DNA from: Bacteroidota bacterium
GTDB lineage: Bacteria; Bacteroidota; Bacteroidia; Flavobacteriales_E; Vicingaceae
Reading direction: 5' to 3'
DNA length: 41,428 nucleotides
Assembly: GCA_016183805.1 (NCBI GenBank)
Contig: JACPDX010000036.1
Location: 3,549 to 44,976, forward strand
This document shows, one piece after another, positions 17,852-22,997 of this stretch. Position numbers and translations under genes: made by a program. The stretch's first letter is position 1. The number at the start of each line of letters is the position of its first letter. The notes beneath the pieces are model-generated. The model worked only from the letters and a program-made list of their open reading frames with translations. It was not told the DNA's origin and searched no databases.

Positions 17852-20176
17852 ATGTCAAGAATAGTATTAGGAAATAAAAATCTAAACCAATGGCCATCAA
17901 TTCCGACCAACGCAACAGATTTAAGAATTGAAAACAATCAGTTAATTGAGATTCCTGATGCAGTTCAGTCTCTTAATTCACTTACTAGAATTATCGCAAC
18001 AAACAATAAAATTTCTAAAATTTCAAAGAAGCTAAGCTCTCTTCCAAATTTTACTGATTTACGTCTTGCCAATAATGAGCTAAAAGCAATCCCTGAGACA
18101 ATTTTCAGCATTAAAAAGCTAACTATTTTATTGGTTAATAATAATAACATTGAAATAATCCCTCCGGAAATAGGATTCTTAAAGTCACTTACTCAATTTC
18201 ACCTTCAAGCTAATCAACTTAATACTGTTTCTGACCAAATTGGTGGTTTAAGCAACTTGACACACTTAAATCTTGATAACAATCCAATTGAATATTTACC
18301 ATCTTCAATTCGTGAACTAAAGAAACTTGTTCACTTTAGTATCAATGGCACTAACCTTCCAATTCCACCTGGATACCAACCTAATCAAAACATTCCTGCA
18401 ACTATAGAATATATCCTTGCAAATCAAAGAGAACCTCCAATTACTTTAAACATCAAAAATGCATTCGTTTTCTGCAACTTTAGCAAAGTAAGTTTAATTG
18501 ACAAATTCAATTCTGTTTTATCTGAATTTTCAGATAAAAACAATGTTGAATTCTCTTTCATTGATGACGTAAAAAATTTATCTAAAGAAACTACAACTGT
18601 ACTTCTCATTGTTGGTTTTGATGTCCATAATGATCCAAATCTTATATTCAAGATTATTAAAAAATGTGCATCATTAAATATCCCATATAAAATTTTATAT
18701 CAAAAGGATATTGAAGATGGTATTTCAGATATAAATCTTGAGAAAGGAGCTGAAACAAAAAAACTAAGAGATCAATTTGAAGAAAATTTTTATCAGGAAC
18801 TCATTCAATTTCATTCACAAAGTGAATTATCGGATTTAATTCTAAACGTTCTTAAGGAACATAAACCTGAAGTCAAATTAAATTACCTCGGTTTAATAAA
18901 TATTGGCCATTTTGAAGATGTCGAAATAAATTTTGATAAGAATTTAACATGCTTTGTCGGCGAAAATGGATTTGGAAAAAGCTCCATTTTAAGGGCTTTG
19001 GCATTAGCTATAGTCGGTCCTGACAATTCAAAAATAGTTAAAAAATCAATAGATAATCTATTAAGAATAAAATCTATTAACAAAGATGGACAAGTAATAT
19101 ATTCTGAGAAAGGTAGCATCACTTTACGTTATTCTGTTGATTCTGTGCAATATGAAAATGTAATTACCCTTTCAAGTAAAGATGAAGGTCGGTTAATTTC
19201 AACAACAGCGACAGGCGATTATACGCTTAATTCAGGCGAATTCAATTTAAAATCTTTGATAGTAGGATTCCCTCAATTGAGAGGAAGAACTAATGTTAAA
19301 GAGGACATTAAAAAGACGCCTTATTCGCAGCCACATATTGATGATATTATTCCTTTACTGAACAATGAAGAAGATCTAAGGCTAGATTCTTTTGTAGGAT
19401 GGATTGCTAACTTATATGGAGAGGCTATTAAAGATGGAGAATTTGAAAATTCAAAAGAAGCCTCTATTATTGAATACGTTTTTAATGTAATAACAGAACT
19501 TACGGGTAAGAATATTTCTTTTGTAACTGTTCAAAACTTCACCCCTCCAATTGTCATTATTTCGACCGCGGATTCACCAAATGGGGTTCCGTTAAATTTA
19601 ATTAGTCAGGGTTTTAAGATTGTAATCGGATGGATTGGATATTTTATTCAGAGGAGAATAGAGGCGTTTCCCTTAAGTTCTATTAGTTCTATTTCAACCG
19701 AAAAATCCATATTGATTATTGACGAAATAGACAGCTCTATTCATCCTATTTGGCAATCAAGATTATTAGATGTTTTAAGAAGACAATTTCCTTCAACTCA
19801 AATTATCTGCACTACACATTCACCAATAATGCTAGCAGGATTAGATAAAGAACAAATTCTTGAAATACGAAAATTGGATGATAGAATAGTTGTACAGCCA
19901 AACAGTTTTGACACTTGGGCTTCATCTTATAAAGAAATACTCCAAATGATATTTAATACTTCGGATTATATTCCAAAAGTTTCGAAAGAAGAAATTGAAT
20001 TAGAATTAGAAAACGAGGACAACCCTGAAAAAATCACACAATTAAAAGAAACATTAAATAGGTTACTAACAAATGAAATGCTGGCTGATAATTTGAAAAA
20101 GTACGAGCTAACTTTGTCTAAAAAAGAAAAAGAATTGGATGCATTAATCTCCGAATATAAAGTAAAAAATAAATAA
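17852..20176 (+). CDS. LRR-AAA ATPase, Septu PtuA-like defence candidate
   Basis: This 774-aa protein starts with about seven leucine-rich repeats of 23 residues (about 20-175; for example LTHLNLDNNPIEYLPSSI). An alpha/beta domain of unknown family follows (about 197-335, starting NAFVFCNFSKVSLIDKFNSV). Next comes an ABC-type AAA ATPase (about 342-690) with Walker A GENGFGKS (370-377), a signature-like LISQGFK (583-589), Walker B LIIDE (D624-E625) and the H-loop histidine TTHSP (H656). The C-terminus is a charged, coiled-coil-like segment (about 710-774). The HNH gene starts 1 base after its stop. An ATPase plus HNH pair is the architecture of Septu (PtuA/PtuB) and of retron effectors of that type. 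The LRR array is unusual and may be the sensor. It has its own promoter and is divergent from tetR. The anti-phage role is inferred. Confidence 0.85.
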   Translation: MSRIVLGNKNLNQWPSIPTNATDLRIENNQLIEIPDAVQSLNSLTRIIATNNKISKISKKLSSLPNFTDLRLANNELKAIPETIFSIKKLTILLVNNNNIEIIPPEIGFLKSLTQFHLQANQLNTVSDQIGGLSNLTHLNLDNNPIEYLPSSIRELKKLVHFSINGTNLPIPPGYQPNQNIPATIEYILANQREPPITLNIKNAFVFCNFSKVSLIDKFNSVLSEFSDKNNVEFSFIDDVKNLSKETTTVLLIVGFDVHNDPNLIFKIIKKCASLNIPYKILYQKDIEDGISDINLEKGAETKKLRDQFEENFYQELIQFHSQSELSDLILNVLKEHKPEVKLNYLGLINIGHFEDVEINFDKNLTCFVGENGFGKSSILRALALAIVGPDNSKIVKKSIDNLLRIKSINKDGQVIYSEKGSITLRYSVDSVQYENVITLSSKDEGRLISTTATGDYTLNSGEFNLKSLIVGFPQLRGRTNVKEDIKKTPYSQPHIDDIIPLLNNEEDLRLDSFVGWIANLYGEAIKDGEFENSKEASIIEYVFNVITELTGKNISFVTVQNFTPPIVIISTADSPNGVPLNLISQGFKIVIGWIGYFIQRRIEAFPLSSISSISTEKSILIIDEIDSSIHPIWQSRLLDVLRRQFPSTQIICTTHSPIMLAGLDKEQILEIRKLDDRIVVQPNSFDTWASSYKEILQMIFNTSDYIPKVSKEEIELELENEDNPEKITQLKETLNRLLTNEMLADNLKKYELTLSKKEKELDALISEYKVKNK

Positions 20177-20177
20177 A

Positions 20178-20981
20178 ATGCATTTTGTAGACCGCTCTGA
20201 AATAAAAAATCCTCCAATCGAAAAGCTTAAGGAATTAAATGATAGCCATAAGCCTAATTGGATTAGTTACAATAAAGCTCGATCCGAAAAAAAGACCCCA
20301 CTGCCAATAAAACCAAGCTCAGGTTGGTTACATGACCAAATAAGAACTCCATTAAAAACTTTGTTCTTAAAAAATTGTGGCTATTGTGGTACTCATACAG
20401 ATCTAGGAAATGATGCTGAAGTCGATCATCATTTCCCAACTTCACTTGACATTAAGGCAGAATATATATATAATTGGGAAAATTATATTTGGTCATGCCC
20501 TTCCTGCAATGGAATGAAAAAACATCATTATCCTTTATTAAATCCCTGCCTAATTTTAGATATGAAACATATTTATTTTCATTCTGCTGATGGGAGATAT
20601 TTGTATTATAAAAACACTCCAAATGAAATAATTACTAAATATGAGAATACACAAAGATATTCCAATTTAAACCTCAAAACTAATCCTGATTTCAGAAAGT
20701 ATATATTCAGAGACACTACAGAAAACCATCTTAAAGGACTTAAAATGTACTGGGAATTATATGAAGTAGAGGCTAAAGTTCATGGTGAAGCTTCAACAGA
20801 AGCTAAAAATAAATTGGATGCTTTTAATCTTAAGAAGGAAAATTTCATGGATCTCATAAGAAGTGGATACCATTTAATGTTGATAAAATATGCATTTGAC
20901 GTTTTTTGTGATAATCAAGAATTTAATTTCCCATTTACTATAAAAGAACTAATTGAAGAATCTAAATATTTAAATACATAA
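20178..20981 (+). CDS. HNH endonuclease, PtuB-like partner
   Basis: This 267-aa protein has an HNH core. C67-G-Y-C70 and C107-P-S-C110 form a likely zinc site, and E81-V-D-H-H85 supplies the ββα-metal catalytic histidine. N99-W100 and N111 with K114 complete the pattern usual for PtuB (CxxC, (E/D)H, WxN, CxxCNxxK). The N-terminus contains PNWISYNKARSEKKTPLP, similar to the start of many PtuB/RetB proteins, and the C-terminus is helical. It starts 1 base after the ATPase stop, so translation is probably coupled and the products may form a complex. The nuclease would be the effector that cuts nucleic acid when the ATPase senses infection; that role is inferred. Confidence 0.88.
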   Translation: MHFVDRSEIKNPPIEKLKELNDSHKPNWISYNKARSEKKTPLPIKPSSGWLHDQIRTPLKTLFLKNCGYCGTHTDLGNDAEVDHHFPTSLDIKAEYIYNWENYIWSCPSCNGMKKHHYPLLNPCLILDMKHIYFHSADGRYLYYKNTPNEIITKYENTQRYSNLNLKTNPDFRKYIFRDTTENHLKGLKMYWELYEVEAKVHGEASTEAKNKLDAFNLKKENFMDLIRSGYHLMLIKYAFDVFCDNQEFNFPFTIKELIEESKYLNT

Positions 20982-20984
20982 ATA

Positions 20985-21034
20985 CCTCACTGTCCTTAGT
21001 CTGAAGCGAGGCAAGAGTGGTGGGGACTAAGGAC
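20985..21034 (+). repeat. 50-nt hairpin repeat, copy 1
   Basis: After a CCTCACT lead (20985-20991), GTCCTTAGTC (20992-21001) pairs with GACTAAGGAC (21025-21034) around a 23-nt loop starting TGAAGC. It matches copy 2, read on the opposite strand, at 37 of 50 positions. Two stem pairs differ between copies but keep complementarity. Confidence 0.8.
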
Positions 21035-21060
21035 TTCTACTATAAAAAAGCTTATTTTTG

Positions 21061-21076
21061 TCCGTCAGCTGACGGA
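21061..21076. repeat. 16-bp perfect palindrome between the hairpin copies
   Basis: TCCGTCAGCTGACGGA is a perfect palindrome with PvuII-like centre CAGCTG, near the centre of the inverted pair of hairpin repeats. Confidence 0.8.
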
Positions 21077-21091
21077 TTGAAATGTTATGAG

Positions 21092-21141
21092 GTCTGTAGT
21101 CGCCAACACACCAACTTGGCTTCAGACTACAGACAGAGAGG
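21092..21141 (-). repeat. 50-nt hairpin repeat, copy 2 (inverted)
   Basis: On the minus strand it reads CCTCTCT, then GTCTGTAGTC, a 23-nt loop starting TGAAGC, then GACTACAGAC. Stem and loop lengths are identical to copy 1. The inverted pair lies between the convergent HNH and TIM-barrel genes, a typical place for REP-like elements. It may also help terminate transcription. Confidence 0.8.
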
Positions 21142-21185
21142 GCAATAATGTTTTTTTTTATACTACAAAAACCAATTAAAAGCTA

Positions 21186-22997
21186 TTAATTGTTTGGCAC
21201 TAAAACCGGAATTTCAATTAAATTAACTTTCATTAAATACGTTTCAAGCTCCGATTTCCAATTGGTTTTATCGGCTAATTTTGGGAGTAAGGTTTTGTAA
21301 TATTCTATTCCTTCCAATAAATTATTTTTAAACGAATTAAAATATTTTAGTTTTCGTTCGTTTATCGCTTCTTCTTCACAGGTATTTATTTCTTTGTTCA
21401 AATAATCAATGTACATTCCTAATTCTTTGATGTACATGTTGGGACGATACGTATCGTTTAACAGGTTAATTTTACCATAAATATGTCCAACCATTTCTTG
21501 TAAAGTAGATTTTTTAGAAAAGTAAGCCATGTTAGGCCCCGGGCAAACCGAAATACCTTTACCATCAGAAGGTTTAAGTAAATTGTTTTCGGTGTAAGCA
21601 GTCATTACTAAACCTGCACACAAGCACGATTTAACCACAATCTTATCGTATTGTTTTTGATATGCGGCTTTATCTATAATATTTTTAGCATCTAATTCGG
21701 CAATTTTTAGTTTTTGATATTGACGAGATGCCAAACAAATCGGTTTATCAGTAAATTCTTTGTTGTATAATTTTAAATATTGACTAGGGCAAGGACTTCC
21801 CGGTTTTCCGGCTTTTATTTTTTCGTCTCTTTCCATGTCCTTGGTATTGCCTTTCACACAATTAAAAGGTACTCCAATTGGCGAAATATCACTTAAATAC
21901 AAATCATCCTCAGTAGCTTTTGATAATAAATTAAAGGTATCGTTATCAATGTTTACAGCTTCCGGAACCAATAAAAATGGCGTTCCCCAACCCACGCTAT
22001 CCACTTCATAATAATCCGTTAAAAATTGATGTTCGGTTATATTTCCTACTCCACCTTGAGCTGTAACTAACATTTTTAAAGGCTTTTCTAACTTCGGTCG
22101 CCCCAATGTTGATAAAGCATCGTTTAAAATTTGATGAACTTCCTCAATTAACGTCTCTTTGTGTTGTTTAAATTCTTCTAAAATTGGCCCCATTAAAAAC
22201 CCATCGGTAGCAAAAGCATGCCCACCACAGTTTAAACCAGATTCCACTCTATATTCTGAAACCCAAATACCTTTTTTAGCCAAAAATTTACCTTGAACCA
22301 ATGCCGAACGGTAATCGCTCACTTTTAAAATCACTTTTTTGTCTAGTTCACCTTTTTCGTTCGGGAAAAACACATCAAAATTTCCTAAATAGCTGTACAA
22401 TCGTGGGTTTAAACCTGCCGAAAGTACCAATCCTGATTTTAAGGTGCTATTTGCAAAACCTCTAACCGCCGCATGGGCATCATTAAATTCAATAGGTAAT
22501 TGTTCACCTTTCTCGTTATAATTATCCCTGTCCAACTTGGTCATGATATTAATATCAATTGAACCAGCAATTATATTAGCTCTTAACCAATTTTGAATAG
22601 AAGCTTTTACTTCTGTTTCTTTTTCTTCCAACATTCTTAAGTATTCTTTCTTAAGTGTGGAGAAATCAGGGAGCATTTCGAAATATTTTGTTATTTCAGT
22701 ACCCGTTTCAAATGAAGAGTTTTTTAATTCTTGAAATTTATCGTTAACCATTTGGTTCACTAAATTCAAATATTCGGTAATTCGTTTGGCTCTTTTATCA
22801 AATTCGTTTTTATGAATGGGAGTAAATGGAAGATTAAGTTTGGTCGAATAAAACTCTCTAAGTCGCTCAAGCAACATATCGTCTCCTGCAGATAAAACTG
22901 AGGAAATACCATATTGAGCGACTTTTACGGGAGTATCAACCGTAAAACCAATACCCATTACGGGTATATGAAAATTATGAGAAAATGTCATATTCAA
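21186..22997 (-). CDS. Nitronate monooxygenase-like (FMN TIM-barrel) conserved protein
   Basis: This 603-aa protein begins with IPVMGIGFTVDTPVKVAQYG, which fits the first strand of the nitronate monooxygenase/FabK-like barrel. Later blocks include GLNCGGHAFATDG and the phosphate-binding style VTAQGGVGNITEHQFL followed by VGWGTPFLLVPEAV, like the GG..G...MGT.F pattern of that family. It is much longer than ordinary nitronate monooxygenases (about 320-380 aa): a helical insertion follows the first strand (about 50-150), and the C-terminal third has seven or so cysteines (NCVKG, SPCPS, PICLAS, SCLCAG, SVCPGP) that could hold a metal or Fe-S cluster. It appears monocistronic, with a -7 element at 23024-23031. 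The substrate is unknown. Confidence 0.6.
   Translation of the reverse strand: MNMTFSHNFHIPVMGIGFTVDTPVKVAQYGISSVLSAGDDMLLERLREFYSTKLNLPFTPIHKNEFDKRAKRITEYLNLVNQMVNDKFQELKNSSFETGTEITKYFEMLPDFSTLKKEYLRMLEEKETEVKASIQNWLRANIIAGSIDINIMTKLDRDNYNEKGEQLPIEFNDAHAAVRGFANSTLKSGLVLSAGLNPRLYSYLGNFDVFFPNEKGELDKKVILKVSDYRSALVQGKFLAKKGIWVSEYRVESGLNCGGHAFATDGFLMGPILEEFKQHKETLIEEVHQILNDALSTLGRPKLEKPLKMLVTAQGGVGNITEHQFLTDYYEVDSVGWGTPFLLVPEAVNIDNDTFNLLSKATEDDLYLSDISPIGVPFNCVKGNTKDMERDEKIKAGKPGSPCPSQYLKLYNKEFTDKPICLASRQYQKLKIAELDAKNIIDKAAYQKQYDKIVVKSCLCAGLVMTAYTENNLLKPSDGKGISVCPGPNMAYFSKKSTLQEMVGHIYGKINLLNDTYRPNMYIKELGMYIDYLNKEINTCEEEAINERKLKYFNSFKNNLLEGIEYYKTLLPKLADKTNWKSELETYLMKVNLIEIPVLVPNN

Follow-up and report, generated by a model that had tools for sequence, protein, structure and literature searches.

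This analysis revealed that the inverted pair of hairpins at 20985-21141 of the window (the whole stretch of 41,428 nucleotides that was analysed) is best read as a REPIN, namely a REP doublet of a Bacteroidetes-type RAYT, with copy A as its left end, copy B as its right end and a short spacer between them. Judged from the sequence, we put the probability of this reading at roughly 0.88. Several features that define REPs and REPINs were found: stem-loops dispersed between genes, inverted doublets with a short spacer, and a RAYT flanked by the same repeats. The original prediction had likened the pair to a REP/BIME composite of the kind mobilised by RAYT transposases, and this comparison is supported by the dispersed copies and by RAYT genes lying between such hairpins in three genomes. 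Among the findings that weigh against this reading, a RAYT was found between these hairpins in just three of the 11 genomes that bear them.

Anatomy and setting of the doublet

The core hairpins, A at 20985-21034 on the forward strand and B at 21141-21092 on the reverse strand, are identical at 37 of 50 positions. In each of them all ten stem pairs form, and each encloses a loop of 23 nt starting with TGAAGC; these predicted properties were all reproduced from the sequence. An inverted-repeat search returned arms of 53 nt at 20985-21037 and 21089-21141, which are 74% complementary. The stems of A and B differ by two compensatory changes, C-G to T-A and T-A to G-C, exactly as had been claimed. 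The 191-nt stretch around the pair has a fold z of -7.97, a value that is expected because the pair is inverted. Between the two hairpins, an A+T-rich stretch is followed by a palindrome and then by a short tail (Table 1).

Table 1. Features of the hairpin pair in the window, and RAYT units lying between matching hairpins in related genomes
Feature	Position	Strand	Details
Left-end REP (copy A)	20982..21039	+	C-rich lead; stem 20992-21001/21025-21034, 10 bp; loop 21002-21024
Leader-like spacer AAAAAAGCTTATTTTTG	21044..21060	+	TAnnTTTG box 21053-21060; similar stretch in doublets of other genomes
16-bp palindrome TCCGTCAGCTGACGGA	21061..21076	none	Separate dispersed repeat inside the spacer
Possible RAYT gene 3'-end remnant ATTGAAATGTTATGAG, stop codon included	21076..21091	+	First base is the last base of the palindrome
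Right-end REP (copy B)	21087..21144	-	Stem 21092-21101/21125-21134
RAYT unit, Vicingaceae bacterium KA17	G015:C190		Intact, 179 aa; REP_Tyr_transpos 92.5 bits (cut-off 80)
RAYT unit, Flavobacteriales MAG_49	G009:C2		Frame broken, 156-aa ORF; REP_Tyr_transpos 60.6 bits (below the cut-off of 80)
RAYT unit, Flavobacteriales H5_BAC5	G002:C11		One internal TAA; REP_Tyr_transpos 96.9 bits

With regard to its setting, the REPIN lies between convergent genes, an HNH gene that ends at 20981 and an opposite-strand reading frame of 603 codons that ends at 21186. The HNH gene is the second of a Septu-like pair at 17852-20981, directly after which the REPIN begins. The PtuA-type ATPase of this pair, which carries extra N-terminal leucine-rich repeats, has a best PADLOC match of 138.6 bits, and the PtuB-type HNH protein has a PADLOC match of 46.6 bits. 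The doublet had been described as placed at the edge of a defence-like cassette; its position directly after the HNH gene is as described, but this is merely one among many intergenic sites occupied by such hairpins. When the window locus was compared in genomes G002 and G003, both were found to retain an orthologous neighbour gene, beyond which the genes differ; no clean empty site or target junction was found at this locus in the two genomes.

Dispersed copies, their ends and the central palindrome

A blastn search with the 157-bp stretch found 12 places in the window's own genome (G000) at E<=0.001, two of which are the window itself and four of which match only the palindrome-bearing middle. 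A covariance model, which the original prediction had suggested, was built as R1 from eight own-genome copies, A and B included. In the own genome it detects 20 copies at a threshold of E<=0.01 and 21 when this is relaxed to E<=1; these counts are lower bounds, as 150 of 336 first-look candidates were scored. Searched across 46 genomes of the family, the model matched 99 times at E<=0.001, in 11 genomes, again as a lower bound since 120 first-look candidates per genome were scored under stricter filters, and at this threshold and depth the other 35 genomes gave no match. At least 20 of these copies are in G000, 5 in G002, 4 in G003, 3 in G009, 4 in G011, 6 in G012, 16 in G013, 8 in G014, 21 in G015, 7 in G016 and 5 in G021. 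In a scan of the window with filters off, A scored 74.9 bits and B 68.4 bits, both being among the eight building sequences of R1; the opposite strand of the two hairpins scored 13.2 and 11.1 bits, and the next independent match 10.4 bits.

The stem covaries among these copies. In the eight own-genome copies, whose loops range from 22 to 24 nt, four of the ten stem pairs are changed on both sides (1.5 in shuffles, a value of four being reached in 5 of 500), 96.3% of the cells are paired (86.8% in shuffles; 0/500), and the covariation score is 0.279, compared with 0.100 +/- 0.034 in shuffles (0/500). Further pair types are no more numerous than usual (5, compared with 3.9; 91/500). A set of 46 copies, whose alignment was fitted to the R1 model and whose shuffles ignore relatedness, gave 58 double-changed cells compared with 22.4 (0/500 shuffles) and a covariation score of 0.348 compared with 0.164 (0/500), together with six pairs showing a double change (4.4; 42/500) and 15 further pair types (12.5; 26/500).

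The two hairpins of the doublet are not equivalent. Set against five type I doublets, copy B is closer to their 3' hairpins (mean identity 0.86) than to their 5' hairpins (0.66), while copy A is closer to the 5' hairpins (0.75) than to the 3' hairpins (0.66); these doublets, from another genus (g6), were picked and oriented by their spacers, one of them (L116) being turned round. Given that B is nearest to the 3' hairpins and A to the 5' hairpins of doublets from another genus, the differences between A and B, the compensatory pairs included, look mostly like an old left-end/right-end distinction that was inherited. The original prediction had taken the compensatory changes as a sign of selection on the fold. 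Covariation of the stem does hold, but the particular difference between A and B does not appear to be fresh compensation.

Of 17 pairs of neighbouring R1 matches no more than 300 nt apart, 14 have their leads outward, none have them inward and three are on the same strand. One of the 14, at G003:C54, consists of matches that overlap because its left hairpin is cut. Nearly all matches (97 of 99) are located outside any ORF of 100 codons or more, compared with random places in the same loci, 74% of which fall inside one. The neighbouring genes are tandem for 50, convergent for 16 and divergent for five of the 71 matches that could be classed, the remaining 28 of the 99, the two overlapping ones among them, being left unclassed. 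In the own genome, 14 of 20 copies have no partner inside 800 nt. Such unpaired copies, where they lie between tandem genes, run in the direction of the genes in 22 of 28 cases, and in seven of seven in the own genome; this comparison was unplanned. The bias may reflect either a preference at insertion or retention at the level of RNA.

The 16-bp palindrome TCCGTCAGCTGACGGA is present between the hairpins as predicted. It forms a repeat of its own, located within the window spacer or in place of part of it, and is not a component of the repeated unit to which it had been assigned. The own genome contains 12 exact copies of it, and 31 when up to one mismatch is allowed, while its reversed control does not occur at all. 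Among the 46 genomes, exact copies were found in six (45 in G021, 12 in G000, 5 in G013, 4 in G019 and one each in G002 and G015) and none in the other 40. In the own genome they are found at the window locus and on contigs C14, C16, C22, C50, C74, C76, C89 and C96, and the flanks differ among the ten places that were read. Of the 12 exact copies, that of the window is the only one to share a contig with R1 matches. At C14:59455-59501, a copy of the palindrome follows AAAAAAGCTTCAATTTTTTTG, and together they resemble the window spacer (83%, E 9e-7), without hairpins; this is either chance or a decayed relative.

RAYT genes and shortened units

The NCBIfam profile REP_Tyr_transpos (NF047646) matches in 30 of the 46 genomes and exceeds its cut-off of 80 in 21. 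Of these 21, nine belong to the 11 genomes that bear the hairpins and 12 to the 35 that do not; the two hairpin-bearing genomes missing from the set are the own genome and G014. The RAYTs found between inverted R1 hairpins are those of KA17, MAG_49 and H5_BAC5 (Table 1). Identity to the KA17 RAYT is 72% for the MAG_49 protein and 83% for the H5_BAC5 protein, and it ranges over 43-63% for 15 other RAYTs that were compared. The KA17 protein scores 28.9 with the IS200-type profile NF033573, under the cut-off of 55 that marks an IS200-type TnpA. At 179 aa, with the motifs NHVH and YIHNNP and a C-terminal SS, it shows the pattern of TnpA-REP subclass 2.6, or Bertels group 5, to which mostly Bacteroidetes RAYTs have been assigned (Quentin et al. 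2018, PMC6006769). In the broken gene of H5_BAC5, NHVH and SS are present and the Y motif is absent in its YIH[QN]NP form. All three R1-flanked RAYTs have an arginine after the conserved tryptophan (FWRQ), in contrast to the glutamine given for subclass 2.6 in a table of that paper; Pedobacter and Sphingobacteriaceae relatives have FWQQ.

An R1 scan of 35 of the 40 loci found in the RAYT search (L067-L106) gave strong matches solely in the G002 locus. Weak R1-like hairpins, most of them of about 38 nt, were observed at seven other RAYT loci (L082, L087, L089, L091, L092, L094 and L095), some adjoining the RAYT and some more than 400 nt away. The REPs used by related RAYTs may therefore be akin but not the same, and the weak hairpins suggest that REPs diverged together with their RAYTs. 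Among named RAYT relatives in other groups, R1 matches are weak or absent. For the transposase itself, sequences with solved structures gave weak matches only, to TnpArep 4er8 (E 0.0048) and to four transposases (E 0.09-0.6).

The three RAYT units share one layout: a left hairpin, then a leader with a TAnnTTTG box near the ATG, and finally a stop codon that abuts the tail of the right hairpin. TAnnTTTG corresponds to the -7 box of sigma-A promoters described in Flavobacterium psychrophilum (PMC9723704). Shortened units were also found. At G002:C5, the start of a RAYT gene is fused to its end over 113 nt (tblastn E 9e-9), with an intact left hairpin and a right hairpin too degenerate for R1. 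At G003:C6, nothing but the final part of a RAYT gene is left between the hairpins, and at G003:C54 just its last ~10 nt. The latter two were read by eye, and neither gene piece is among the matches of the REP_Tyr_transpos search; the G003:C6 spacer also exceeded all shuffles (0/300) in the following test.

In this test, the leaders and ends of the three RAYT units served as references for 13 doublet spacers, each set against 300 dinucleotide shuffles; G003:C54 was left out because its matches overlap. Six spacers, those of the window, L111, L113, L115, L118 and L119, beat every shuffle (0/300). Seven did not (L110, L112, L114, L116, L117, L125 and L126), and for two of these, L110 and L114, almost every shuffle equalled or exceeded the spacer's score (297/300 and 300/300). 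The seven include all five type I doublets (L110, L112, L114, L116 and L117), the nearest relatives of the window doublet, whose spacers are thus no better than shuffles when set against the three known RAYT leaders and ends. TAnnTTTG occurs on either strand in 11 of the 13 spacers, compared with a mean of 1.5 and a maximum of 6 of 13 in shuffles, with the reservation that the motif was spotted before it was tested and that related spacers do not count as independent cases.

Over its final 16 nt, the window spacer agrees at 14 positions with the end of the KA17 and H5_BAC5 RAYT genes, the register relative to the right hairpin being the same, and at 13, 12 and 12 positions with three other RAYT gene ends. 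Matches of at least 14/16 to these ends occur at three other places among the 82,826 16-mers of the window and at one other place among 209,460 16-mers of the own-genome loci, which overlap one another. This segment, ATTGAAATGTTATGAG, is therefore regarded as a possible remnant of the 3' end of a RAYT gene. In its leader part, the window spacer is of another kind, the type I spacer AAAAAAGCTTATkTTTG, which is common to doublets in G011, G012, G013, G015 and G016; no RAYT with this leader was found among the loci examined.

The REPIN is read as a miniature element that is not autonomous and has the ends of a Bacteroidetes-type RAYT of the HuH/Y1 class. From general RAYT biology and the anatomy of the element, such a RAYT would recognise the hairpins in single-stranded DNA, for instance in the lagging-strand template, nick at the hairpin foot, and move or copy the enclosed piece into other intergenic sites. 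The window doublet or its ancestor would have arisen by internal deletion of a RAYT unit, with the leader and the gene end being kept. MITEs and the end pairs of IS200/IS605 elements are likewise derivatives that retain the two ends of a larger element; the parent here would differ in being a RAYT unit with inverted hairpins and not an insertion sequence. As a general account of how the REPINs of this family were born, with the two REPs as the left and right ends of an old unit and some doublets keeping the TAnnTTTG promoter box and the gene end, deletion is a tentative proposal to which we give somewhat less than even odds. The history of the window copy itself is not simple, because the palindrome sits at the presumed deletion junction.

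Searches with the profile and with the KA17 protein turned up no intact RAYT in the own genome, an assembly of 109 contigs that is 95.9% complete. Given this state of the assembly, an intact gene could be absent from the assembly only. A RAYT relic was found at C23:222-359; it comprises 46 N-terminal residues that are 50% identical to the KA17 RAYT, with one stop (E 4.7e-11). Behind it, at C23:178-228 and on the strand that would be expected, lies a degenerate right-end hairpin. No other R1 match at this locus scores higher (11.1 bits, E 0.022 in 1,859 bases), and six of its ten pairs are not standard. The search for a RAYT gene, which the original prediction had proposed, thus yielded a relic only in the own genome, and in three other genomes RAYT genes were found between such hairpins. 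The own genome seems to have lost its RAYT except for this relic, so the window copy is probably stranded and would, placed as it is between convergent genes, serve at most as a passive 3' hairpin. Because its assembly contains at least 20 REPs but no intact RAYT, this genome is useful for asking whether stranded REPs serve a host function.

Alternative explanations and relation to known systems

The most serious competitor of the REPIN reading holds that the hairpins are a structured RNA of 3' untranslated regions, acting like an mRNA stabiliser or terminator and kept for its RNA fold, with the link to a transposase being historical. The almost exclusively intergenic location, the excess of tandem over convergent and divergent contexts and the tendency of unpaired copies to run with the genes are all compatible with it. 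Stem covariation is too, but the same covariation is expected if the hairpins are recognised as DNA. Against it speak the lead-outward pairing of distinct left and right ends and the RAYT genes and gene pieces beside the hairpins; moreover, the distribution is patchy (11 of 46 genomes), and Rfam at gathering scores gave no match anywhere in the window. We consider it unlikely as the primary explanation, and an RNA function may exist as a secondary role of the hairpins.

A still smaller probability is assigned to the idea that the hairpins are ends or miniature derivatives of an ordinary IS200/IS605 element or another insertion sequence, such as that of the Y1 transposase on contig C9. A Y1_Tnp search of the own genome matched no other protein, and subterminal hairpins are also used by IS200/IS605 elements (PMC6006769). 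It is of the IS200 type (65.7 bits, cut-off 55) and scores 30.9 with REP_Tyr (cut-off 80), no R1 match was found on C9 or seen in its flanks, and the genes that do lie between these hairpins are RAYTs; C9 was therefore rejected as the partner. As for chance inverted repeats at a convergent terminator, the site is indeed convergent and the spacer A+T rich, but this explanation is refuted by the further copies in the own genome and its relatives, and by the distance that separates the scores of A and B from the next independent match in the window; its probability is negligible.

With the REPIN reading retained, the element can be compared with described systems. REPINs were defined by Bertels and Rainey in 2011 as REP doublets that form hairpins and were described as widely distributed; how they evolved was given there as an unknown, with derivation from the flanks of an IS200-like element as one possibility (PMC3116915). 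The present doublet shares with them the two inverted REPs, the short spacer, the intergenic dispersal, the tie to a RAYT and the doublet as the likely mobile unit, as set out in that source. It differs from them in its loop of 22 to 24 nt, its two unlike ends, the resemblance of some spacers to the leader and end of a RAYT gene, and the absence of a GTAG foot (PMC3116915). Neither GTAG, the foot of classical REPs, nor GTGG is present at the foot of any of the eight aligned copies, the foot being a mostly C-rich lead that ends in CT in seven of eight. This does not exclude REP membership, because the flanking secondary structures of subclass 2.6, which have copies elsewhere in the genome, are themselves described as atypical (PMC6006769). 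The unusual flanking hairpins with genomic copies are thus a further likeness to that subclass, besides the protein itself. For subclass 2.6, the available portions of that paper do not mention doublets, left and right ends, derivatives formed by deletion or the retention of a promoter box. The BIMEs of Escherichia coli are likewise composite units of inverted REP pairs. They differ in REP sequence, foot and RAYT subclass (in part PMC6006769). GTAG and CGTC repeats, and relatives flanked by TIRs, have also been described (PMC3733652).

Among the open-licence papers listed, judged by title and the start of the abstract, none named doublets with RAYT gene remnants, which does not imply their absence from print, and a combined literature search for Flavobacteria found no paper within the same kind of source. 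The kind of element, a REPIN with its RAYT, is already known; a deletion series leading from transposase to REPIN would be new. In related genomes, similar end hairpins bound an intact RAYT gene and broken and internally deleted ones, as well as doublets whose spacers resemble just the leader and the last codons, and these graded forms make a deletion origin testable. If it holds, the coexistence of intact to minimal forms would be a direct record of the origin of REPINs, and the promoter carried along may drive transcription of adjacent genes or of a small RNA. A different arrangement was observed at G016:C25:59259-60675 (L123:260-1676), where three R1 hairpins in the same orientation follow one another at a spacing of ~670-690 nt, with a reading frame between each neighbouring pair.
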